64,000 nt of DNA from Comamonadaceae bacterium (GTDB taxonomy: Bacteria > Pseudomonadota > Gammaproteobacteria > Burkholderiales > Burkholderiaceae_C). The position numbers were made by a program, and so were the translations under genes. Under the pieces are notes generated by a model. The model saw nothing but the letters and a program-made list of their open reading frames with translations, was not told where the DNA came from and did not search any database. Every line of letters begins with the position of its first letter. Within the stretch, counting starts at the first letter, position 1. The stretch lies in assembly GCA_947448745.1 (NCBI GenBank), contig CANFOQ010000009.1, positions 1 to 64,000 on the forward strand, written 5' to 3'. Below are positions 24,895-35,043 of the stretch, piece after piece.

Positions 24895-25329
24895 ATGAGA
24901 TTGTTGTTTGTTTGTTTCTGGATGTTGGTCAGTGGGGTGCATGCGGCTGACAACGCGACCGCTGCCAAATCCACGGTCGATGGCATGCCGGCCACCAAGT
25001 CGGCCGCCACCGCCAATGTGGAGCGCGGACGCAAGCTGTTGCTGAACCGGCAAGACACCGGCTGCATCCTGTGCCATGTGGTGCCGGGCTTCAAAGATGG
25101 CGGTGACATGGGCCCCAGCCTGGTGGGTGTGGGCCAACGCCTGAGCCCCGAGTTGTTGCGCCAGCGCATTGCCGACCCGCGCGTCATCAACCCGCAAACC
25201 TTCATGCCGGCTTACTTCAGCACCAAGGGCTTGCAAAACGTGGCCAAACCCCTGAAGGGCAAGACCGTCCTCACCGAGCAAGCGCTGGAAGACATCATCA
25301 GCTACTTGCTCAATCCTCCTAAGGACTGA
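24895..25329 (+). CDS. soxX: Sulfur-oxidation cytochrome c SoxX
   Basis: The 144-residue protein has a signal peptide (MRLLFVCFWMLVSGVHA) and one c-type haem site, DTGCILCHVVPG, with GDMGPSLVGVGQRLSP after it and a likely Met ligand in NPQTFMPAYF. SoxX pairs with SoxA in the periplasm to join thiosulfate oxidatively to the SoxY cysteine. It is the first gene of soxXYZA; soxY follows after two bases. Confidence 0.92.
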   Translation: MRLLFVCFWMLVSGVHAADNATAAKSTVDGMPATKSAATANVERGRKLLLNRQDTGCILCHVVPGFKDGGDMGPSLVGVGQRLSPELLRQRIADPRVINPQTFMPAYFSTKGLQNVAKPLKGKTVLTEQALEDIISYLLNPPKD

Positions 25330-25331
25330 CG

Positions 25332-25841
25332 TTGAACGATTTGTTGAACCGACGAGATTTTTTAAACCACTGCGCCCAAACTTCCTTGGCAGCCAGTGGT
25401 TTGTTGCTGGGCGCAGAGGCCTTGGCGCAAGTGGACAAGCTCACGCTCAGTGGTTTGGCCGAATCGCGCTTGCGTACTTTTGACGAGATGGTCAAGCCCT
25501 TTGTGGTCAATCAACCCTTGGTGAAAGAAGGCGTGAGCCTGACCCTGCCCACACTGGCCGACAACGGCCACTTGGTGCCTTTGCACCTGAAGGTGGACAG
25601 CCCCATGACCGAGGCTTCGCATGTGACCCACATCTATTTGGTGTCGCAACGCAACCCGGTGCCCTTGATGTGTTTGTTTGTGCTGGGACCTTGGAACGGG
25701 CGCGCTGAAATCAACACGCGGGTGCGCTTGTCGGGCACCCAAATGGTGGTGGCCTTGGCGCGTTTGTCCGACGGCACCTTTCGCTATCAAACCCAAGAAG
25801 TTGCGGTGACCGAAGCCGCCTGTGTGGACAACGGCACATGA
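25332..25841 (+). CDS. soxY: Sulfur carrier protein SoxY with atypical C-terminus
   Basis: The 169-residue protein has a twin-arginine signal (NRRDFLNH near residue 6, then a hydrophobic stretch to ALA) and the SoxY immunoglobulin-like core (PLHLKVDSPMTEASHVTHIYLVSQRNPVPL). In canonical SoxY the chain ends with the swinging arm GGCGG, whose Cys carries the sulfane intermediates. Here the end reads EAACVDNGT: the Cys is present, but the flanking glycines are not. The start is a TTG two bases after soxX. SoxZ overlaps its end by four bases. The family call is strong, but the carrier function may differ from the model enzyme. Confidence 0.88.
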   Translation: MNDLLNRRDFLNHCAQTSLAASGLLLGAEALAQVDKLTLSGLAESRLRTFDEMVKPFVVNQPLVKEGVSLTLPTLADNGHLVPLHLKVDSPMTEASHVTHIYLVSQRNPVPLMCLFVLGPWNGRAEINTRVRLSGTQMVVALARLSDGTFRYQTQEVAVTEAACVDNGT

Positions 25842-26188
25842 GCAACGCCCGATTGCAACTCCCGCCCCGCATCGTTGAAGGCGATGTCTTCAAACTGCGC
25901 CTGCTGGTGAACCACCCCATGGACAGCGGCTTTTTGCGCGACATCGACGGCGTGTTGATCAAGCGCAATGTGATTCGCCAACTCAGTTGCACCTTGAACA
26001 ACCAAGAAGTGTTTCGCGCCGAGCCCACCACTGGCATTGCCGCCAATCCATTGTTCGAGTTTTATTTGCGCGCCGTGAAATCCGGCGAGTTGTATTTCCG
26101 CTGGGTCGACGACAAGGCCAACATTGGTGAGATGCGGCATCCACTGGTCGTGTTGCCAGCCAACAGTTCAAGCGCACCCAAGCCATGA
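25838..26188 (+). CDS. soxZ: Sulfur-oxidation protein SoxZ
   Basis: The 116-residue protein matches SoxZ: an N-terminal RIVEGDVFKLRLLVNHPMDSGFLRD, with the MDSGFLRD region in place of the usual METG phrase, and FYLRAVKSGELYFRWVDDKAN near residue 80. SoxZ forms the scaffold dimer with SoxY. No signal peptide is present, so it would be exported with SoxY through the Tat system. It overlaps soxY by four bases (ATGA) and soxA by four bases. Confidence 0.92.
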   Translation: MSNARLQLPPRIVEGDVFKLRLLVNHPMDSGFLRDIDGVLIKRNVIRQLSCTLNNQEVFRAEPTTGIAANPLFEFYLRAVKSGELYFRWVDDKANIGEMRHPLVVLPANSSSAPKP

Positions 26189-26970
26189 AGAACTTCCTGG
26201 TTTATGTGTTGACCGTGGGCTTGTGGGTTGGCAACGCTGCTGCTCAACAACGCAACATCCCGTTGGACCAACTCAAGTCTGGTTTGGAATTCTCCAGTCC
26301 CGAGGTGCGCGGTTTGCAACTCGATGACGATTTCGCCAGCCCCAGCGCCCATGGCATTGACAAGGGTGCCCAACTGTGGAATCAAGTGACTGGCAGCAGC
26401 AACAAAAGTTGCGCCGCTTGCCATGGCGACGCGAATGAAAGCATGAAAGGGGCGGCCACCCGCTACCCCGCCATCGACAAGGCCACGGGCAAGTTGTTCA
26501 ACTTGGAAGACCGCATTCGCAATTGCCGTTCCAAGCAACAAAAAGCCAGCAACTGGCCGCTGGAATCCGACGAACTGTTGGCCATCACCTTGCATGTGAC
26601 CAGCGCCTCTAAGGGCATGCCGATTTTGGTGAGCATCGACGGCCCTGCCAAAAAACATTTCGAAGCCGGGCAAAAGCTCTACATGGCGCGTCAAGGCCAA
26701 ATGAACTTGTCGTGCACCCAATGCCATGACCAGCACTATGGGCAACGTCTTTACAACGACAAGCTCAGCCAAGGCCAGCCCAATGGCTACCCCATCTTCA
26801 GATTGGATTGGCAGTACTTGGCGTCCCTTGAGCGGCGCTTGCGTTTTTGTTATGCCAGCGTGAAAGCCGAAATTCCGCCTTGGGGTCACCAAGACATGCG
26901 CGATCTGAATTTGTATTTGATGTGGCGGGCGCAAGGCCTGGCCATCGAGGTGCCTGCTGTTCGCAAATAA
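26185..26970 (+). CDS. soxA: Dihaem sulfur-oxidation cytochrome SoxA
   Basis: The 261-residue protein has a signal peptide (to AAA near residue 20) and two c-type haem sites, SCAACHGD near residue 76 and SCTQCHDQH near residue 176. Each has the downstream Cys typical of SoxA ligands: EDRIRNCRSKQQ for the first and RRLRFCYASVKAE for the second. The latter corresponds to the active-site cysteine persulfide ligand. It works with SoxX. soxB, soxCD and other sox genes do not follow; aroE faces it four bases downstream. Confidence 0.93.
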   Translation: MKNFLVYVLTVGLWVGNAAAQQRNIPLDQLKSGLEFSSPEVRGLQLDDDFASPSAHGIDKGAQLWNQVTGSSNKSCAACHGDANESMKGAATRYPAIDKATGKLFNLEDRIRNCRSKQQKASNWPLESDELLAITLHVTSASKGMPILVSIDGPAKKHFEAGQKLYMARQGQMNLSCTQCHDQHYGQRLYNDKLSQGQPNGYPIFRLDWQYLASLERRLRFCYASVKAEIPPWGHQDMRDLNLYLMWRAQGLAIEVPAVRK

Positions 26971-26973
26971 GCC

Positions 26974-27819
26974 TTAGAACGAGGCCAACACCTTTTGCCA
27001 CAAGGCGGGTGTGACCTCGGGCAGGACACCAAACCAAGCCGCAAAAGCGGGCCGCGCTTGATGCAACAACATGCCCAAACCGCCAACGGTGGGGTTGCCC
27101 CGCGCTTGGGCACGCAGCAGCAAGTCGGTTTGCAAGGGCGTGTACACAATGTCCGACACCAACGCATGGGTTGGCAAGGCGTCCAAGCGAATGTCCAGTG
27201 CAGGCTGGCCTTGCATGCCCTGCGTGGTGGTGTTCACAACGAGTGCTGCATCCGCCAAAGCCGCGTGCCGTTGATCCCAATCCAGCGCTTTCACGGGAGC
27301 ACCAAACTCAGCGGCCATGGCCTGCGCTTTGTCCATGCTGCGGTTGAGCAAACGAATGTCTGTGGCACCGGCATCGGCCAGCGCCCACACCACCGCCCGC
27401 GCAGCGCCACCTGCCCCCAGCACCACAGCCGGTCCTGTGCTGGCTTGCCAGTCGGGCTGTGCTTCGCGCAAACTGTGGATGTAGCCAAAGGCATCGGTGT
27501 TGGTGCCCGCCAAGCTGCCATCGGGCTGCACCACCACGGTGTTGACCGCACCGATTTGCCGCGCCACATCGTCCAACTGAGAAATGCAGTCCAACGCTTG
27601 CACTTTGTGCGGCAGTGTGAGGTTGCAGCCAGCAAAACCCAAGGCAGACAAGCCCGCAAGGGCTTCAGGCAAGTGCAGCGGGTTGACTGGCAAGGGCAGG
27701 TACACGCCATGCAGGCCGTGCTCGGCGATCCAGTGGCTGTGAATCAAAGGCGAGCGTGAATGCTTGATGGGCCAACCCATCACGCCGGCCATCACAAAAG
27801 AGGAAGAAGCAGTGGTCAT
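26974..27819 (-). CDS. aroE: Shikimate dehydrogenase AroE
   Basis: The 281-residue enzyme (ATG 27819, MTTASSSFVMAGVMGWP) reduces 3-dehydroshikimate with NADPH. The substrate site is seen in KHSRSPLIHSHW and NLTLPHK (catalytic Lys) and in NTDAFGYIHSL (Asp). The nucleotide site is VVLGAGGAARAV, and the C-terminus has VGGLGMLLHQA. The frame is open to 27897, which would overlap the divergent gene; the inner ATG fits the family. It converges with soxA. Confidence 0.95.
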   Translation of the reverse strand: MTTASSSFVMAGVMGWPIKHSRSPLIHSHWIAEHGLHGVYLPLPVNPLHLPEALAGLSALGFAGCNLTLPHKVQALDCISQLDDVARQIGAVNTVVVQPDGSLAGTNTDAFGYIHSLREAQPDWQASTGPAVVLGAGGAARAVVWALADAGATDIRLLNRSMDKAQAMAAEFGAPVKALDWDQRHAALADAALVVNTTTQGMQGQPALDIRLDALPTHALVSDIVYTPLQTDLLLRAQARGNPTVGGLGMLLHQARPAFAAWFGVLPEVTPALWQKVLASF

Positions 27820-27875
27820 GATGCCCTCAAGCATAGCTTCGAAAATCTGGCGAAAGGGCGTCATCCTGTGAAACA

Positions 27876-30329
27876 ATGCGCCAGCCCTTTTCGACACCCA
27901 TGATGCAAGCTGTCCAGCCTCTCAACACCGCCCGCCTTCATCAATTTTTGGCCGACCTGACACGGCTGGTCGACAGTGCGCCGCCTGAACAAGATTTGTT
28001 GGCCCAAGCCAAGCACTTGCTCTATCCCTTGTTGCGCAACGACGATTGGCTCAGCCCCGATTTGGCGCAACCGCATCCGCAGCACTATCAACAATTTTTG
28101 TTGTACGCCGACCCACAAGACCGCTTCTCGGTGGTGAGCTTTGTCTGGGGCCCAGGACAAGCCACGCCAGTGCACGACCACACGGTGTGGGGCTTGGTTG
28201 GCATGTTGCGCGGCTCGGAGTCTTGTCAGCCTTACAGCCGCATGTCGGATGGTCGTTGGGTGCCTGCGGGTTTTCAAGTGGACATGCTGCCGGGTGACAT
28301 TGAAGCCGTGTCACCCCGCATTGGTGACGTGCACAAAGTGTGGAATGCCTTGCCCGATCAAGTGTCGATCAGCATCCATGTGTATGGCGGCAACATTGGC
28401 AAGATTGAACGCCACAGTTACCGCGAAGACGGCAGCCGCGCCACCTTCGTCTCGGGCTACAGCAATGTCATGTTGCTGGGCGAGCAAAAAGAAGCCTTGT
28501 GGACCAGCCCACCACCCGTGGGCAACCTGAGGATGCCAGCTGCAGCCCCTGCTGCTGCACCTCCTGCACCCGCCGCTGCTGCCCCCCAAGCACCGCCAAC
28601 ACCGACCGTTGCTGTGTTGCCAGAGCGCGTGGCCCCTGTCCAGGTTGCACCACCTGCACCAGTAGCCACCGCTGTAACGCCAAGCCCTGTGGTGGAACCG
28701 CCTGCAGCCGAAGAGCAACTCGACCCTGGCCACCCCTACCCCGTGACCACCTTTGCGCAAGTGCGCCAAGCCTTGCTGCAAAAAGAAGAAATCGCGTTGG
28801 TGGATGTGCGTGAAGAAGACCCCTACGCGCAAAGCCATCCACTGTTTGCCATCAACCTGCCCTATGGCCGCATCGAATCGGACGCGCTTGTGCGCATTCC
28901 ACGCCTGAACACGCCGCTGGTGTTGCTGGACAACGGTGAAGGTTTGGCGGTGCGCGCCGTGCCGGTGTTTCAACGCTTGGGCTATTCGCAGGTGAGCGTG
29001 TTGCTCAATGGCTTGGCCGGTTGGGCTGCTGCTGGTGGCGAGTTGTTCCGCGATGTCAACGTGCCCAGCAAATCCTTTGGCGAGTTGGTCGAGTCGCAAC
29101 GCAAAACCCCTTCTTTCTCGGCGCACGAAGTCAACGCGCTGCTCGAACGCGGTTCGGACATGGTGGTGTTGGATGCCCGCCGTTTTGATGAATACCAAAC
29201 CATGAGCATCCCCGGGTCCATCAGCGTGCCAGGCGGCGAGTTGGTATTGCGAGCACGTTCATTGGCACCCAGCGCCACCACCCGCATCGTGGTCAATTGC
29301 GCGGGCCGCACCCGCAGCATCATCGGTGCGCAGTCGCTCATCAATGCCGGCATCCCCAACCCCGTCTGTGCTTTGCGCAACGGCACCATCGGCTGGACCT
29401 TGGCTGGCCTTGAGTTGGAACACAAAGCAGACCGACGCTTTGGCCCAGTGAGTGACGCCGACAAGAGCAAATCTGCGGCCACCGCTTTGGCCTTGTTGTT
29501 CCGCGCGGGCGTGCAACGGATTGACCGCGACACACTTGCTCAGTGGCAAGCCGACACCACACGCAACACCTATTTGTTTGATGTGCGCACGCCCGAGGAA
29601 TACGCCCTCGGCCATTGGCCCCAAGCCATCAGTGCACCAGGTGGTCAATTGGTGCAAGAAACCGATCACCATGTGGGTGTGCGCGGCGCTCGCTTGGTGG
29701 TGTATGACGACGATGGTGTGCGCGCTTCCCTCACCGCATCATGGTTGGCGCAAATGGGCTGGGAAGTGGCGGTGTTGAAAGATGTGAAGTCTCAAGACTT
29801 GACCAACACCGAGACACCGCATCTGCACCAACTGCCCGACACCCTCGAGCCGGTGCCCGAGGTGGACCCGGCCACCTTGAAAGAATGGTTGGCCAACCGC
29901 AGCAACCTGAGCATGGTGATTGATGTGGGCGACAGTGCCACCTATGTGAAACGACACATTCCAGGTGCATGGTGGTTGTTGCGTTCGCAAATGGCACAAG
30001 ACTTCAGCCGGGTGCACAAGGCCAACCGCTATGTGCTCACCTGTGCCGATGGCCGTGCCTCACGTTACGCCGTGGCCGAACTCAAACCATTGGTGCGCCC
30101 CGGCGTGGAAGTGCTGTGGTTGCCCGGTGGCAATGCCGCATGGATGGCACAAGGCTTCAGCACCCAACAGGGTGAGTCCTATGTGGCCAGCCCGCGCATC
30201 GATCGTTACCGACGCCCCTATGAGGGCACCAACAACCCGACAGAAGCCATGCAGGCTTATCTGGATTGGGAGTACGGTTTGGTGGAACAACTGCGCCGCG
30301 ATGGCACGCACCACTTCAAGGTGATTTAG
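27876..30329 (+). CDS. Cysteine-dioxygenase-type cupin fused to four rhodanese domains
   Basis: This 817-residue protein joins two sulfur enzymes. Residues about 15-205 form a thiol-dioxygenase cupin: His100 and His102 (GQATPVHDH) and His153 (GDVHKVWN) are the iron ligands, and ISIHVYGG holds the conserved His168/Tyr170. There is no Cys at the usual crosslink position. Residues about 218-284 are a Pro/Ala-rich linker. Four rhodanese-like domains follow (about 287-392, 412-516, 548-640, 664-765). Only the second (Cys475, VNCAGRTRS) and fourth (Cys723, LTCADGRAS) keep the catalytic Cys; the others have Asp-rich loops. No signal peptide is present, so it is cytoplasmic. It may oxidise a thiol and handle the sulfane sulfur. 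A second start at 27900 is possible. It lies near soxXYZA. Confidence 0.88.
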   Translation: MRQPFSTPMMQAVQPLNTARLHQFLADLTRLVDSAPPEQDLLAQAKHLLYPLLRNDDWLSPDLAQPHPQHYQQFLLYADPQDRFSVVSFVWGPGQATPVHDHTVWGLVGMLRGSESCQPYSRMSDGRWVPAGFQVDMLPGDIEAVSPRIGDVHKVWNALPDQVSISIHVYGGNIGKIERHSYREDGSRATFVSGYSNVMLLGEQKEALWTSPPPVGNLRMPAAAPAAAPPAPAAAAPQAPPTPTVAVLPERVAPVQVAPPAPVATAVTPSPVVEPPAAEEQLDPGHPYPVTTFAQVRQALLQKEEIALVDVREEDPYAQSHPLFAINLPYGRIESDALVRIPRLNTPLVLLDNGEGLAVRAVPVFQRLGYSQVSVLLNGLAGWAAAGGELFRDVNVPSKSFGELVESQRKTPSFSAHEVNALLERGSDMVVLDARRFDEYQTMSIPGSISVPGGELVLRARSLAPSATTRIVVNCAGRTRSIIGAQSLINAGIPNPVCALRNGTIGWTLAGLELEHKADRRFGPVSDADKSKSAATALALLFRAGVQRIDRDTLAQWQADTTRNTYLFDVRTPEEYALGHWPQAISAPGGQLVQETDHHVGVRGARLVVYDDDGVRASLTASWLAQMGWEVAVLKDVKSQDLTNTETPHLHQLPDTLEPVPEVDPATLKEWLANRSNLSMVIDVGDSATYVKRHIPGAWWLLRSQMAQDFSRVHKANRYVLTCADGRASRYAVAELKPLVRPGVEVLWLPGGNAAWMAQGFSTQQGESYVASPRIDRYRRPYEGTNNPTEAMQAYLDWEYGLVEQLRRDGTHHFKVI

Positions 30330-30406: not shown

Positions 30407-30676
30407 ATGTTGTCCGTTCGATTAACCGATCCCGTTGAACGCGCGTTGCAGTCCTATTGCACCGAGCACGCGGTCAGCAAATCTCACGTGGTGCAAGAGG
30501 CCTTGGCCGAGTGGTTGGGCAAGGCCCAATTGGCCCATGACCGCTCAACGGCCGATGCCTTGTCCTTTTTGGCAGCAGACGATCCCTTGCGTCAGGCTGT
30601 TGGCATCATCAAACAAGGCCCCAGCACGGATGAGTGGATGGCCACCACCCGTGGAGATGATTGGAAAAAGCCATGA
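30407..30676 (+). CDS. Ribbon-helix-helix antitoxin of a VapBC-type pair
   Basis: The 89-residue protein begins MLSVRLTDPVERALQSYCTEH, a ribbon-helix-helix strand and helix, followed by KSHVVQEALAEWL. The C-terminal half (SFLAADDPLRQAVGIIKQGPSTDEWMATTRGDDW) matches the tails that wrap PIN toxins. It should repress the operon through the inverted repeat just upstream. Its stop overlaps the toxin start as ATGA. Confidence 0.88.
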   Translation: MLSVRLTDPVERALQSYCTEHAVSKSHVVQEALAEWLGKAQLAHDRSTADALSFLAADDPLRQAVGIIKQGPSTDEWMATTRGDDWKKP

Positions 30677-31071
30677 CCTTGGTGGACACCAATGTGCTGT
30701 TGGATGTGTTCAATGCCGATGCGCAATGGATGGCATGGTCTGCAAGACAACTGCATCTGGCACGCAGCAGCCAAGGCTTGGCCATCAACATGGTGGTCTA
30801 TGCCGAGTTGACGGGTCATCCACACTGTCCCAAACACTTGGATGCGGTGCTGCAAAGCCTTGAAGTCGAGGTGTTGAATGTGAACCGCGCCAGCGCCAAA
30901 CTGGCTGGCAAAGCTTTCTACCAATACCGTCAACGCGGTGGTCAGAAGTCAGGTGTGTTGCCCGATTTTTTCATTGGCGCACAAGCTGTGAGCGAGGGTT
31001 ATCGATTGCTGACCCGCGATGCAGGCCGCTACAAAACCTATTTCCCCAAAATCAAACTGATCAGCCCTTGA
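30673..31071 (+). CDS. VapC-type PIN-domain ribonuclease toxin
   Basis: The 132-residue PIN protein starts at ATG 30673, overlapping the antitoxin stop. Its acidic active-site residues are the Asp of TLVDTNVLLDVF, the Glu of VYAELTGH, the Asp of VLPDFFIGAQA and the Asp of LLTRDAGRY. VapC toxins cleave RNA, often tRNA, when freed from the antitoxin. An in-frame TTG at 30661 is a less likely start. The gene converges with the cytochrome b561 gene. Confidence 0.9.
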   Translation: MTLVDTNVLLDVFNADAQWMAWSARQLHLARSSQGLAINMVVYAELTGHPHCPKHLDAVLQSLEVEVLNVNRASAKLAGKAFYQYRQRGGQKSGVLPDFFIGAQAVSEGYRLLTRDAGRYKTYFPKIKLISP

Positions 31072-31097: not shown

Positions 31098-31634
31098 TCA
31101 GGATCCCCAGCGCATCCGGTTGAGCAAACCGTCCTTTTTGACCACGGTGTGCCAAACAACGGCCAGCAGATGTAAGGCCACCAAGGCCGCCAAGATCCAA
31201 GCGGTGTTTTCATGCACCTCGGCCAAGGCTTCTTTCAGCTCGGGTTGGGCTTCCCACAAGCGCGGCAACGCGAAACCAAAAAATTTCACCGGGTAAGGTG
31301 AAAAACTGGAACCCAAAAAACCAGTCACGGGGATGAGCAACATCAACAGGTACATCAAGCCATGAACCGCTTTGGAAAGCTTGGCTTGCCAATCGGGTGT
31401 GTTGGGTACATCGGCAGGGACAGCATGGGTCACGCGCCAACCCATGCGCCACAACACAAACAAGGTGAGCAACAAACCAATGGACTTGTGCAAGTTGAAC
31501 CAAAAGGCGCGAACGCCGGGTGGGTCCTTGGGAATTTCTTCCATCCACAAACCCAGTCCAAACTGGGCAATCAAGCCCAGCGCCAGCAGCCAATGCAAGG
31601 CCACCATCACACGGTTGTAGCGTTCGTTGTTCAT
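31098..31634 (-). CDS. Cytochrome b561-family di-haem membrane protein
   Basis: The 178-residue protein has four membrane helices with haem-ligand histidines: VMVALHWLLALG near residue 15, NLHKSIGLL near residue 48, KAVHGLMYLLMLLIPVTGFL near residue 95, and VHENTAWILAALVALHLLAVVWH near residue 145. Bacterial b561 proteins move electrons between the quinone pool and periplasmic carriers. The ATG overlaps the stop of the beta-propeller gene (ATGA), so the two are translationally coupled. In this context it may link the periplasmic alcohol-oxidation chain to quinone. That is inferred from position. Confidence 0.9.
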   Translation of the reverse strand: MNNERYNRVMVALHWLLALGLIAQFGLGLWMEEIPKDPPGVRAFWFNLHKSIGLLLTLFVLWRMGWRVTHAVPADVPNTPDWQAKLSKAVHGLMYLLMLLIPVTGFLGSSFSPYPVKFFGFALPRLWEAQPELKEALAEVHENTAWILAALVALHLLAVVWHTVVKKDGLLNRMRWGS

Positions 31635-32578
31635 TGCGTCACCACCCCCCAAGGCAGTTTGCCGGTGGGAATTTCTTTCACCATCTTGCGCGAAGCCAAA
31701 TCAATGACGCTGATGGAACCACTGCGACCCGCAGCGGCATAAAGCTTGGTGCCGTCCGGGCTGAAGGACATGTTCCAGGGGCGCTGACCGATGGCGATGT
31801 TTTCCACCAAGGTGAATGTTTTGGTGTCCACCATCGACACGTTGGCGTCGCCACCATTGGAGGCGAACACATAGGCGCCATCAGGCGAGACGATGACGCC
31901 CGCCGTGCGTTTGCCTACCGCTTGCTTGCCCACCACCTTGCGTGTTTTCATGTCGATGGCCACCAACAAGCTGGCACTTTCCACGGCCACATAAGCGCGT
32001 TGTCCATCCGGGCTGAAGGCAATGCCGCGAGGACGTTCACCCACTTTGACCGAACCAACTTGTTTTCGTTTGCCAATGTCCAAGATGTCCACTTGGTCGG
32101 CTTCTTCGGCAGAAACCAGCATGAACTTGCCATCAGGGCTGAAGACGCCGTGCTCGGGGTTTTTGCCGTGCACAGGAATGGAAAAAACCAGCTTCATGCT
32201 TTTGACATTGATGAAGCTGATGCTGTTGGTGCCTTCGTTGGCCACGCCCAGCCATTCGCCATTGGGCGAGCAGTACAGGGCTTCCGGGGACTCGCCCAAC
32301 TGCACGCGTTGCTCGATCTCGCCTTTGACGGTGTCGATCATCCACAGCTGTGAAGAATTTTGCTCGGTGACAAACAGCTTGCTGCTGCCTTTGCACACCG
32401 CCAAGCCACGCGGCTTGCCGCCTGTTTCGATCGTTGAGAGAACGGTGTCGGTGTCGGCATCGATGACGGAGACCGTGCCCGCACCTTCATTGGTGGCATA
32501 GGCGCGGGCTTGAGACCAAGCCGGCGCGGAAACAAACGAAGACAACACCAGCACTGCGCTGAGTGACAAGATTTTCAT
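31631..32578 (-). CDS. YVTN-family beta-propeller protein of quinoprotein clusters
   Basis: The 315-residue protein (ATG 32578) has a signal peptide (MKILSLSAVLVLSSFVSAPAWSQA) and about seven propeller blades marked by repeats such as ATNEGAGTVSVIDADTDTV, GVFSPDGKFMLVSAEEADQVDILD, IAFSPDGQRAYVAVE and MSFSPDGTKLYAAAGRSGSISVID. It resembles the PQQ-dependent-catabolism-associated beta-propeller proteins, which are periplasmic and of unknown exact role. Placement beside a PQQ alcohol dehydrogenase island supports this. It is coupled to the downstream b561 gene and lies 97 bases after the TonB receptor. Confidence 0.87.
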   Translation of the reverse strand: MKILSLSAVLVLSSFVSAPAWSQARAYATNEGAGTVSVIDADTDTVLSTIETGGKPRGLAVCKGSSKLFVTEQNSSQLWMIDTVKGEIEQRVQLGESPEALYCSPNGEWLGVANEGTNSISFINVKSMKLVFSIPVHGKNPEHGVFSPDGKFMLVSAEEADQVDILDIGKRKQVGSVKVGERPRGIAFSPDGQRAYVAVESASLLVAIDMKTRKVVGKQAVGKRTAGVIVSPDGAYVFASNGGDANVSMVDTKTFTLVENIAIGQRPWNMSFSPDGTKLYAAAGRSGSISVIDLASRKMVKEIPTGKLPWGVVTQ

Positions 32579-32675
32579 TGGGCAGACCTTTGGGGAAATA
32601 TCAATTGAGAACTTGCATCTTAGAACAGGCTGGTGCTGGGGCTTCGGGAAACATTCCCGAAGCACTTGGGGCAGC

Positions 32676-34829
32676 TTAGAACTTGTAAGCAGCTTTCACA
32701 CCGACGATCCAGTTAGCGGGTGCGGCTGGTTCGTAATAACGACCAGCTGTGTAATCGTTCACTCGAACAGAACCAATGTATTTGACATCAGTGAAGTTGT
32801 TCAAAGTAACGTATTCCGTTGTGCTCCATGGACCTGTTTTTTGGTTCAAGCTCGCACGGAGATTAAACACCGTATACCCTGCAGCAGCTGTTCCAGCTTC
32901 GTTTGTATCGTTCACTTGAGTTGAACTGTTGTAAACAGCATTTAATGCAGTTTGAAAACCCCAAGAAGGATATGACCAAGCCAATTCAGCAAAGGCTTGT
33001 TGCTTGTAGGTTCCAGGAATTAGATTGCCTTTGGCAACCGTATTTCCACCGGATGTGAAGCCTTCCTCAAATGTCGCGTTTAACTGTGTATAGGATGCGT
33101 ATGCACTAAAGTTATAGGGCAATAATGAATCTATAGAAACTTCAGCACCAGTTCGTTTTGTTGATTTTCCGTTTTGGTAACTTGTTCTTCCGCTGACTGT
33201 TGAGTTGATGATGATTTCATTTTGGGTGTCAACTTGAAAAATCGTCAAATTGATCTTGGTGTTGTCATTCAAAAATGCTTTAGCACCGGCCTCGTAGTTA
33301 TTGCTGGTGCTTGGCTTGATAGACAAGTTTGGTCCAGAGCCAGAAGTTGCATCCAAGAATGAGGTTTCTACCAAGGTGGGGGTTTCAAAGGCCATTCCAG
33401 CATTTGCATACAAATTAACTGCAGGTGTTAATTTGTAGATGCCACCGATTACAGGTGTAGTTTTGTCGTAGGTCAAATTTCCACTTGTATCTTCAAATCT
33501 TTTAGATTCTTTAGCTGCCACAGTGTTGCCAGCAACCACTTTGGAAGGATCAACCAATGCATCTTCAAATTTCATTGTCAATCGTGTATGTCTAAGTCCG
33601 GCATGCATATCTAGCTCAGGAATAACTGTCAAACTTCCTTGAATATATTGATCAAAAATTGTTGCTGTCTGCTTTTCCTTACGATTGAAGTTATTATCAA
33701 TTAAAGAAGATCTTGCTACTCCATTATCAGCGTTGATGTCATTTCTATCATCAATCATCTGGCCAAATGTAATACCTGAAGTTAGGGCATAAGGCATTTG
33801 GGAGATATTGCCTTTATTCAGCCACTTGAGTTCTGCCCCGTAAAAATCGCGTGCGATGATACTTGCACGACTATTGTAAGTTTCCGCAGACCCAGTTGGC
33901 GGCGCAGAATAAAGAATTCCAGTGTTATCCCGCTTACCAGCGTATGCCAACAAAGCTAGCGTGTCAGTTGAGCTAAGTATTTTTTCAAAATTAAAGCCAA
34001 TCTGTGTATTACTCCTCTCTGCTCGTGCGCTTACCAACTTGGAAGTGCTGGACGCAATGTTTGGAGTCGAAATTTCGCTCAACTTCAATCCACCAGGATC
34101 TTTTGCATATTGATCAAACCAACTGATCAAGGTAGTCAATTTCGCATCGTCACCAATTGTTGTCTTCAACTTGGCTGTTGCTTGTTTTTTAGTGTTGTCA
34201 CTGCTATCACGGTAACCATCCGATTTGAAATTCGAGTAGCCCAACAAATAATCAACACCTGAAGTCGAGCCCGCGGCCTTCACCGATTCGCTGTAAGTGC
34301 CATAACTGCCAGCCAACACATCGCCTGAAATTTCAGGTGATTTGGGTGCGTTCTCGGTGAACATCTGAATCACACCACCCGACGAATTGCCATACATGGC
34401 CGAGAAAGGTCCACGCATCACTTCAATAGAGTCGATCATGCCCAGGTCCACGCTGCCGGGGTTGCCAATGCCGTCGGGCATAGAGAGCGGAATGCCGTCC
34501 ACATACACGCGAATGCCACGCACACCAAACGCTGAACGTGCACCAAAACCGCGTGAAGAAATTTGCGGGTCTTGCGCCATCTGTGTGCGGTTTTGCGCGG
34601 TGATGCCAGGCACGCGGGCCAGACTTTCAGACAAAGTCATGCGCAAGTTGCCGTCTTGAATTTGTTCTTTGCTAACCTTGTCGATGGACATGGGCAAATC
34701 AAAACTGTCTTGTTCTGTTTTGGTGGCGGTGATCACCACGGAGGACAACGTTTTCACGTCCTCAGCTTGCGCCAATTGGGCACTCAAACACATCACGGCA
34801 AAAGGAATGGCGGCGTATCTCTTCAACAT
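32676..34829 (-). CDS. TonB-dependent outer-membrane receptor (first)
   Basis: The protein (717 residues from ATG 34829) has a signal peptide, then a TonB-box-like start (LSSVVITATKTEQ). A plug domain follows (about residues 45-160, with PQISSRGFGARSAFGVRGIRVYVDGIP and IEVMRGPFSAMYGNSSGGVI), then a 22-strand-type barrel ending in the C-terminal Phe of KAAYKF. The barrel part is AT-richer than neighbouring genes. It imports a scarce ligand using proton-motive energy. The ligand is unknown; position in a quinoprotein island suggests a lanthanide chelate, PQQ or another metal complex. It is followed by the beta-propeller and b561 genes. Confidence 0.92.
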   Translation of the reverse strand: MLKRYAAIPFAVMCLSAQLAQAEDVKTLSSVVITATKTEQDSFDLPMSIDKVSKEQIQDGNLRMTLSESLARVPGITAQNRTQMAQDPQISSRGFGARSAFGVRGIRVYVDGIPLSMPDGIGNPGSVDLGMIDSIEVMRGPFSAMYGNSSGGVIQMFTENAPKSPEISGDVLAGSYGTYSESVKAAGSTSGVDYLLGYSNFKSDGYRDSSDNTKKQATAKLKTTIGDDAKLTTLISWFDQYAKDPGGLKLSEISTPNIASSTSKLVSARAERSNTQIGFNFEKILSSTDTLALLAYAGKRDNTGILYSAPPTGSAETYNSRASIIARDFYGAELKWLNKGNISQMPYALTSGITFGQMIDDRNDINADNGVARSSLIDNNFNRKEKQTATIFDQYIQGSLTVIPELDMHAGLRHTRLTMKFEDALVDPSKVVAGNTVAAKESKRFEDTSGNLTYDKTTPVIGGIYKLTPAVNLYANAGMAFETPTLVETSFLDATSGSGPNLSIKPSTSNNYEAGAKAFLNDNTKINLTIFQVDTQNEIIINSTVSGRTSYQNGKSTKRTGAEVSIDSLLPYNFSAYASYTQLNATFEEGFTSGGNTVAKGNLIPGTYKQQAFAELAWSYPSWGFQTALNAVYNSSTQVNDTNEAGTAAAGYTVFNLRASLNQKTGPWSTTEYVTLNNFTDVKYIGSVRVNDYTAGRYYEPAAPANWIVGVKAAYKF

Positions 34830-35043
34830 GTTGTCTCTCTTTGATTCCAAACAACCAACACGGAATGTGTTGGCGAAACGCGAGAGTCTAGAGACGACAA
34901 GCTTTTTATCCAAATCCAATCATGCAAAGACCCGCCGACGTGATCTAGCAAAAATCTTGAGATGTTGTCAGTTATTATTCGCCGCACTCGCAAGGTCCAC
35001 CCCTGAATCATCTCGGTCATGACCCTGTCACCCCTTTATTTGT

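Follow-up and report, generated by a model that had tools for sequence, protein, structure and literature searches.

The closest described relatives of the gene considered here are two separate proteins. One is the Gln-type 3-mercaptopropionate dioxygenase (3MDO) known from Azotobacter (6xb9) and Pseudomonas aeruginosa (3uss/4tlf); the other is a four-rhodanese 'thiosulfate sulfurtransferase' of P. aeruginosa, the structure of which, 1yt8, has been solved since 2005, and which we take to be PA2603. In Pseudomonas protegens and other bacteria the corresponding genes, 3mdo and tst, form an adjacent pair. The stretch of DNA analysed here, the first 64,000 nucleotides of contig CANFOQ010000009.1 from a Comamonadaceae bacterium (hereafter the window), encodes the same two proteins in the same order at positions 27876-30329 (+ strand), as one chain of 817 residues rather than two. 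In other words, the gene is a genus-specific, in-frame fusion of a known but functionally obscure gene pair, the members of which are normally adjacent.

The whole cupin of the fused chain is like that of 3MDO, with equivalents of the iron ligands, of Gln63 and Arg168 of the Azotobacter (Av) enzyme, and of the Ser-His-Tyr (SHY) motif. It differs from the stand-alone enzyme in being the N-terminal half of a larger chain, its activity is a prediction from sequence, and some of its fused relatives have lost the Gln, the SHY His or the Arg. Likewise, the second half has the same four repeats and C-terminal tail as 1yt8, although the latter was solved as a stand-alone protein; no functional study of the 1yt8 protein, nor any clear role for it, was found in the open-access literature. 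Further afield, the persulfide dioxygenase-rhodanese fusions (e.g. CstB and PRF) have a metallo-beta-lactamase fold and take a persulfide as substrate. In these an iron dioxygenase is joined to rhodanese as in the window protein, in which the dioxygenase is instead a cupin. The gene of mercaptosuccinate dioxygenase (Variovorax B4, Advenella DPN7) clusters with a rhodanese gene in a manner akin to the split pairs, with sulfite as the end product according to excerpts of the published work (PMC5373536); this enzyme (8vni) is, however, distant from the window cupin (24% identity) and its cluster consists of separate genes.

The window gene is a single open reading frame with an ATG start and 817 codons, uninterrupted by any stop. 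An earlier note, made from the DNA letters, had described its product as a dioxygenase connected through a Pro/Ala linker to four rhodanese repeats, and had proposed domain searches and structure prediction as a check. Both were run, and the reading frame, phmmer, Pfam and AlphaFold2 agree on this anatomy, three-His site included. The AlphaFold2 model of the 817-residue chain has a mean predicted local distance difference test score (pLDDT) of 88.8 and a predicted template modelling score (pTM) of 0.69. In structural comparison it matches 1yt8 with Z 62.0 and a root-mean-square deviation of 1.5 over 522 aligned residues, 3MDO structures with Z about 30 and mammalian cysteine dioxygenase (CDO) with Z about 23; EanB structures also appear among its Foldseek matches, with template modelling scores by target length of at most 0.28. 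The chain contains cysteine at positions 117, 475, 498 and 723 only. No signal peptide is apparent by eye, and the protein is probably cytoplasmic.

Residues 14-200 (27915-28475, +) constitute the cupin, as judged by phmmer, structure match and residue counts. Against chains of solved structure, phmmer matches this region to 6xb9 and 3uss with E 1.1e-65 and about 57% identity. The iron ligands His100, His102 and His153 are present and invariant in 93 of 93 aligned cupin rows, a set that leaves out rows, such as L058, whose rhodanese part is truncated, and the match to 3MDO structures gives the fold; the earlier note's intact three-His iron site is thereby borne out. Its term 'cysteine-dioxygenase-type cupin' can be made more precise: the domain is a thiol dioxygenase that by sequence is of the Gln-type 3MDO and not the mammalian CDO type. 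In this regard, the phmmer alignment equates Q73 with Av Gln63, R179 with Av Arg168, and S166, H168 and Y170 with the SHY motif, all of which the window protein keeps. Across the 93 rows R179 is kept in all, and Q73 and H168 in 90 each. According to excerpts of a study of the Azotobacter enzyme, Gln63 is the distinguishing Gln, Arg168 binds the substrate carboxylate, and the SHY motif has roles described there (PMC8050391). The most likely activity predicted for the cupin half is the oxidation of 3-mercaptopropionate to 3-sulfinopropionate.

The remainder of the chain, residues 290-817, matches 1yt8 with E 1e-201 and 60% identity over 522 residues, and Pfam places four Rhodanese stretches in it (4.5e-45). 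Repeat 1 (residues 290-392; 28743-29051, +), which is delimited by Pfam, the repeat alignment and the 1yt8 alignment, is silent, with Asp352 at the Cys position. Repeat 2 (residues 410-518, best Pfam stretch 415-508; 29103-29429, +) has the loop CAGRTR, with the conserved Cys475 (codon 29298-29300, +) as the presumed persulfide-carrying residue. Repeat 3 (residues 544-645; 29505-29810, +), for which conservation is added to Pfam and the repeat alignment, is again silent, with Asp611 at the Cys position, and repeat 4 (residues 656-765; 29841-30170, +), placed by Pfam and the repeat alignment, carries Cys723 (codon 30042-30044, +), which, like Cys475, was confirmed by a check of the residue and by its conservation. 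After these comes a C-terminal tail of two helices (residues 766-817, RYRRPYEGTNNP...; 30171-30326, +), to the end of which the 1yt8 alignment extends and in which pLDDT is mostly 88-97. The earlier reading that only repeats 2 and 4 hold a catalytic Cys is thus correct, with Asp in place of Cys in repeats 1 and 3. So too is its comparison with tandem sulfurtransferases: thiosulfate and mercaptopyruvate sulfurtransferases have a silent domain followed by an active-Cys domain, and the same order, silent then active, recurs here as Asp352/Cys475 and Asp611/Cys723. In BLASTP comparisons between repeats, 1-2 (E 7e-6), 2-3 (E 4e-6) and 3-4 (E 4e-4) match, 2-4 does so weakly (0.11), and 1-3 and 1-4 give no match. 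Cys475 is invariant in 93 of 93 rhodanese rows, and in 42 of 42 fused rows; Asp611 is likewise found in all 93, while position 352 is Asp in 80 and Gly in 13. From its sequence, the four-rhodanese half can be predicted to act as a thiosulfate or mercaptopyruvate sulfurtransferase.

The distribution of the fused form was determined in one genome collection. Separate genes had been supposed to be the usual state, as is indeed the case: of the best 80 of 587 confirmed loci, 56 are split and adjacent, 22 are fused and two have the rhodanese gene alone. Within the window's family a match is found in 22 of 120 genomes, its own included, and in the family loci that were read the fusion occurs only in the window's genome and one other (G080), both of the same genus. 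In that genus 75 of 84 genomes have a match, as do all 40 of those with completeness of 90% or more and contamination of 5% or less. One frame reads through both halves in 72 of the 75, and in the remaining three (G123, G126, G151) the match ends at a contig end. The 72 comprise 71 full read-throughs, that is 53 genomes with two-piece matches, a further such genome (G137) and 17 with single-piece matches, together with G139, which is counted by a contig-end frame (L059) taken as its contig C119 because length and frame agree. Of the 54 two-piece genomes, 53 passed the span test; G137 failed it, since its match extends beyond a stop located upstream, and was included on the strength of its frame as read. 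An open frame over both halves in so many genomes rules out chance, and no split form was seen among the 75 genomes with a match. Assembly artefact can also be discarded as an explanation, since two single-contig genomes (G080 and G147) hold the one-frame fusion. We conclude that the fusion is real; within one genus of freshwater Comamonadaceae it appears to be fixed. No description of it was found in the open-access literature, although one could be contained in subscription papers on CDO homologues from bacteria.

Beyond the genus, the class has matches in 11 of 369 genomes, the window's own included, with no further fused frame among the at most two candidates scored per genome. A second genus, g92, has matches in nine of nine genomes and was considered as a possible site of a second fusion; this was ruled out, as the frames read in six of the nine (L010, L151-L155) are all split, and the equal frame length first listed for G205 did not stand once the frame was read. 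On a tree of 53 of the 93 rows, from which most Pseudomonas rows were left out, a single change accounts for the fused label (support 73) and 22 of 23 fused rows fall in one clade, so that the fusion may have had a single origin. The partial L059, at its contig end, falls outside the main fused clade. As a separate observation, in L036, a metagenome-assembled genome titled Rickettsia typhi, the fusion has sox and aroE-like genes near it, just as it does in the Comamonadaceae genus; the title is probably wrong.

When adjacent genes fuse, this commonly points to functional coupling, and a fusion of two enzymes that other bacteria encode as neighbours suggests that the halves work as a team. The reading that we favour, to which we give a rough probability of 0.45, is of a bifunctional enzyme that converts a thiol to its sulfinate and then carries out persulfide transfer within the same pathway. 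The Fe(II) site of H100, H102 and H153 would use O2 to form the sulfinate of a small thiol with a carboxylate group, 3-mercaptopropionate or a related compound being most likely. Cys475, and usually also Cys723, would then take a persulfide from a sulfane-sulfur donor and deliver it to an acceptor in the same pathway; the simplest such acceptor is sulfite set free from the sulfinate, in which case thiosulfate would form. The product of a thiol dioxygenase is a sulfinate; a thiol-derived persulfide, which the earlier note had envisaged as possibly channelled, would therefore have to come from another source.

Between the halves lies an Ala/Pro-rich linker (residues about 201-287; 28476-28736, +), recognised by its pLDDT as disordered, with values under 50 over residues 200-276. 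The two fused branches of the tree differ in linker length, with 5-14 residues in one and 37-219 in the other (80 in the window); fused rows off the tree reach up to 300. When the linkers are pooled, Ala, Pro, Ser, Val and Thr are abundant in them. Because the linker is disordered, and because both very short and very long forms (5-300 residues) persist, a rigid channel or precise tunnel between the halves is unlikely; the modest reading is one of tethering and equal dosage, in which the flexible linker would keep both activities together and in equal amounts. The same features are what would be expected if the halves were independent and the fusion fixed nothing but co-expression, the stop between two contiguous genes having been lost almost neutrally: the linker has no fixed length, and at several loci the annotated split genes directly adjoin or overlap each other. 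This is nevertheless somewhat unlikely, since across the 42 fused rows the iron ligands and Cys475 are retained wherever they can be read, and the genus yielded no split form.

Further context comes from the split gene pairs. Eight annotated split regions, chosen from the best plasmid matches (116 records with a match) and hence not a random sample, contain transport genes in eight of eight, LysR/CysB regulators in seven, luciferase-like (LLM) monooxygenases in five, acyl-CoA dehydrogenase-like genes in five and class II aldolases in four. Two of the LLM monooxygenases that were tested resemble SsuD/SfnG, and three tested dehydrogenases resemble SfnB or 3-sulfinopropanoyl-CoA desulfinase, in all cases under the family cut-offs. 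Excerpts of work on P. protegens indicate that 3mdo and tst appear as one transcription unit and that deletion of 3mdo raised extracellular 3-mercaptopropionic acid (3-MPA) (PMC12947264). In addition, PA2602 is among the genes bound and controlled by BsrA, according to excerpts of another study (PMC8407307).

Several findings weigh against the favoured sequence of thiol oxidation and persulfide transfer. Pfam CDO_I (PF05995) reaches only E 0.0019 and 18.2 bits, below its gathering cut-off of 23, so that the dioxygenase assignment depends on the phmmer matches to solved chains. Among the 42 fused rows, which represent 41 genes as L005 and L028 come from one genome, Q73 is another residue in seven (with 2 gaps), the SHY His (H168) has become Glu in six and R179 has become Cys in two. 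Cys723 is Cys in 89 and Ser in four of the 93 rhodanese rows, and Ser in three of the 42 fused rows. In P. protegens the deletion of tst gave no significant change in 3-MPA (PMC12947264). Among 14 matches in the window's genome no 3-sulfinopropanoyl-CoA desulfinase exceeds the cut-off, the best reaching 203 of 600 bits, so that the known route from 3-sulfinopropionate to sulfite is not seen there. Finally, ten neighbours of three fused loci outside the window's subclade include no uptake gene; those present include DsbB, iron-traffic, Rrf2 and family III CoA-transferase genes, the last of which, beside locus L045, fits none of the models above cut-off (at best 260 of 750 bits).

Within the fused genus, substrate-site changes occur in rows L037, L038, L058, L133, L135 and L137, in L039 and L127, and in L036, L121 and L124. 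The residues that contact 3-mercaptopropionate thus drift in some near relatives, in which substrate preference, to judge from the alignment, may be shifting. Ser replaces Cys in repeat 4 of L040, L044 and L051, which belong to one long-linker branch; repeat 2 would then be the sole active rhodanese there.

The order of events could be the reverse, with the rhodanese half first stripping sulfane sulfur from a persulfide, for example that of 3-mercaptopropionate or glutathione, and the freed thiol then being oxidised to the sulfinate. Rhodanese chemistry runs in both directions, persulfide dioxygenase-rhodanese fusions exist in another fold, and Cys475 is invariant; against this stands the lack of a significant 3-MPA change in the P. 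protegens tst mutant, and we consider this order unlikely. The desulfinase result leaves room for direct sulfur transfer to the sulfinate made by the dioxygenase, giving a thiosulfonate (R-SO2-S-), in a manner like the formation of thiotaurine from hypotaurine by sulfurtransferases. This would link the product of the first half to the acceptor of the second without the desulfinase. Excerpts of a review, citing Sorbo 1957 among others, describe a sulfurtransferase that moves the sulfur of thiocysteine or mercaptopyruvate to hypotaurine (PMC7545470). Direct transfer of this kind is quite unlikely to be what the fused chain performs. It is, moreover, set back by the consideration that no bacterial thiosulfonate of 3-MPA is known. 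Its fullest form, in which the chain would be a thiosulfonate synthase that makes the sulfinate in one half, loads sulfane sulfur onto it from the tethered rhodanese and so supplies a soluble R-SO2-S- carrier, an acid analogue of thiotaurine, across the genus, is a speculative suggestion and an improbable one. The weights given to these rivals of the bifunctional enzyme overlap, as the readings are not mutually exclusive.

The gene order around the fusion raises a different question. In the window the order is soxX, soxY', soxZ, soxA, an aroE-like gene on the opposite strand, the fusion, a PIN-domain gene, cytochrome b561, a YVTN-type propeller and a TonB receptor. The soxX-soxY'-soxZ-soxA set (24895-26970, +; soxZ identified by eye) and the divergent aroE-like gene (26974-27897, -; identified by eye without a family call) are not judged to be part of the system. 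As listed, the aroE-like frame overlaps the start of the fusion by 22 bases, and its relatives sit at the same place in eight subclade loci. The earlier note's placing of the fusion beside soxXYZA is accurate in that sox genes do lie upstream, but the aroE-like gene stands between and the SoxY is noncanonical. It ends EAACVDNGT, lacking GGCGG, and EAAC(V/I)DNG is the ending in the nine loci read, the window included; the genome's other SoxY ends GGCGG. The window SoxY' scores 117 bits with its best-fitting model, that of the 'AACIE arm' paralogue (cut-off 172), and 88 bits with the true SoxY model (cut-off 125), below both. No soxB was seen beside this set, which looks paralogous, while contig 24 has soxC, soxY, soxA and soxB over cut-offs together with a c-type cytochrome gene.

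That the fusion might belong to a Sox-linked sulfur oxidation system, as this vicinity would imply, is very improbable. Sox genes are found upstream in the window and in eight of eight near-subclade loci with flank. Of nine further fused loci with 2.8 kb or more of upstream sequence none has them, nor does any split locus of the set; among the 77 loci in which the gene is separate or cupin-only, 50 extend at least 4 kb upstream (many loci of the family search carry about 1.5 kb of flank only). Sox proteins are periplasmic. A functional link to Sox is accordingly rejected, both because of the gene order and because this SoxY has an unusual end. Downstream of the fusion, the PIN-domain gene (30661-31071) has no relative in the other loci searched. 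The region 31098-34919 (-) holds the cytochrome b561, the YVTN-type beta-propeller and the TonB receptor, of which the first two recur in several subclade relatives.

The apparent fixation of the two enzymes as one chain throughout a genus is comparative evidence that both serve one pathway. As such, the fused chain offers a single protein in which their coupling can be tested, and makes the role of the old orphan structure 1yt8 itself testable. In this way the fusion bears on the handling of organic thiols by freshwater bacteria.

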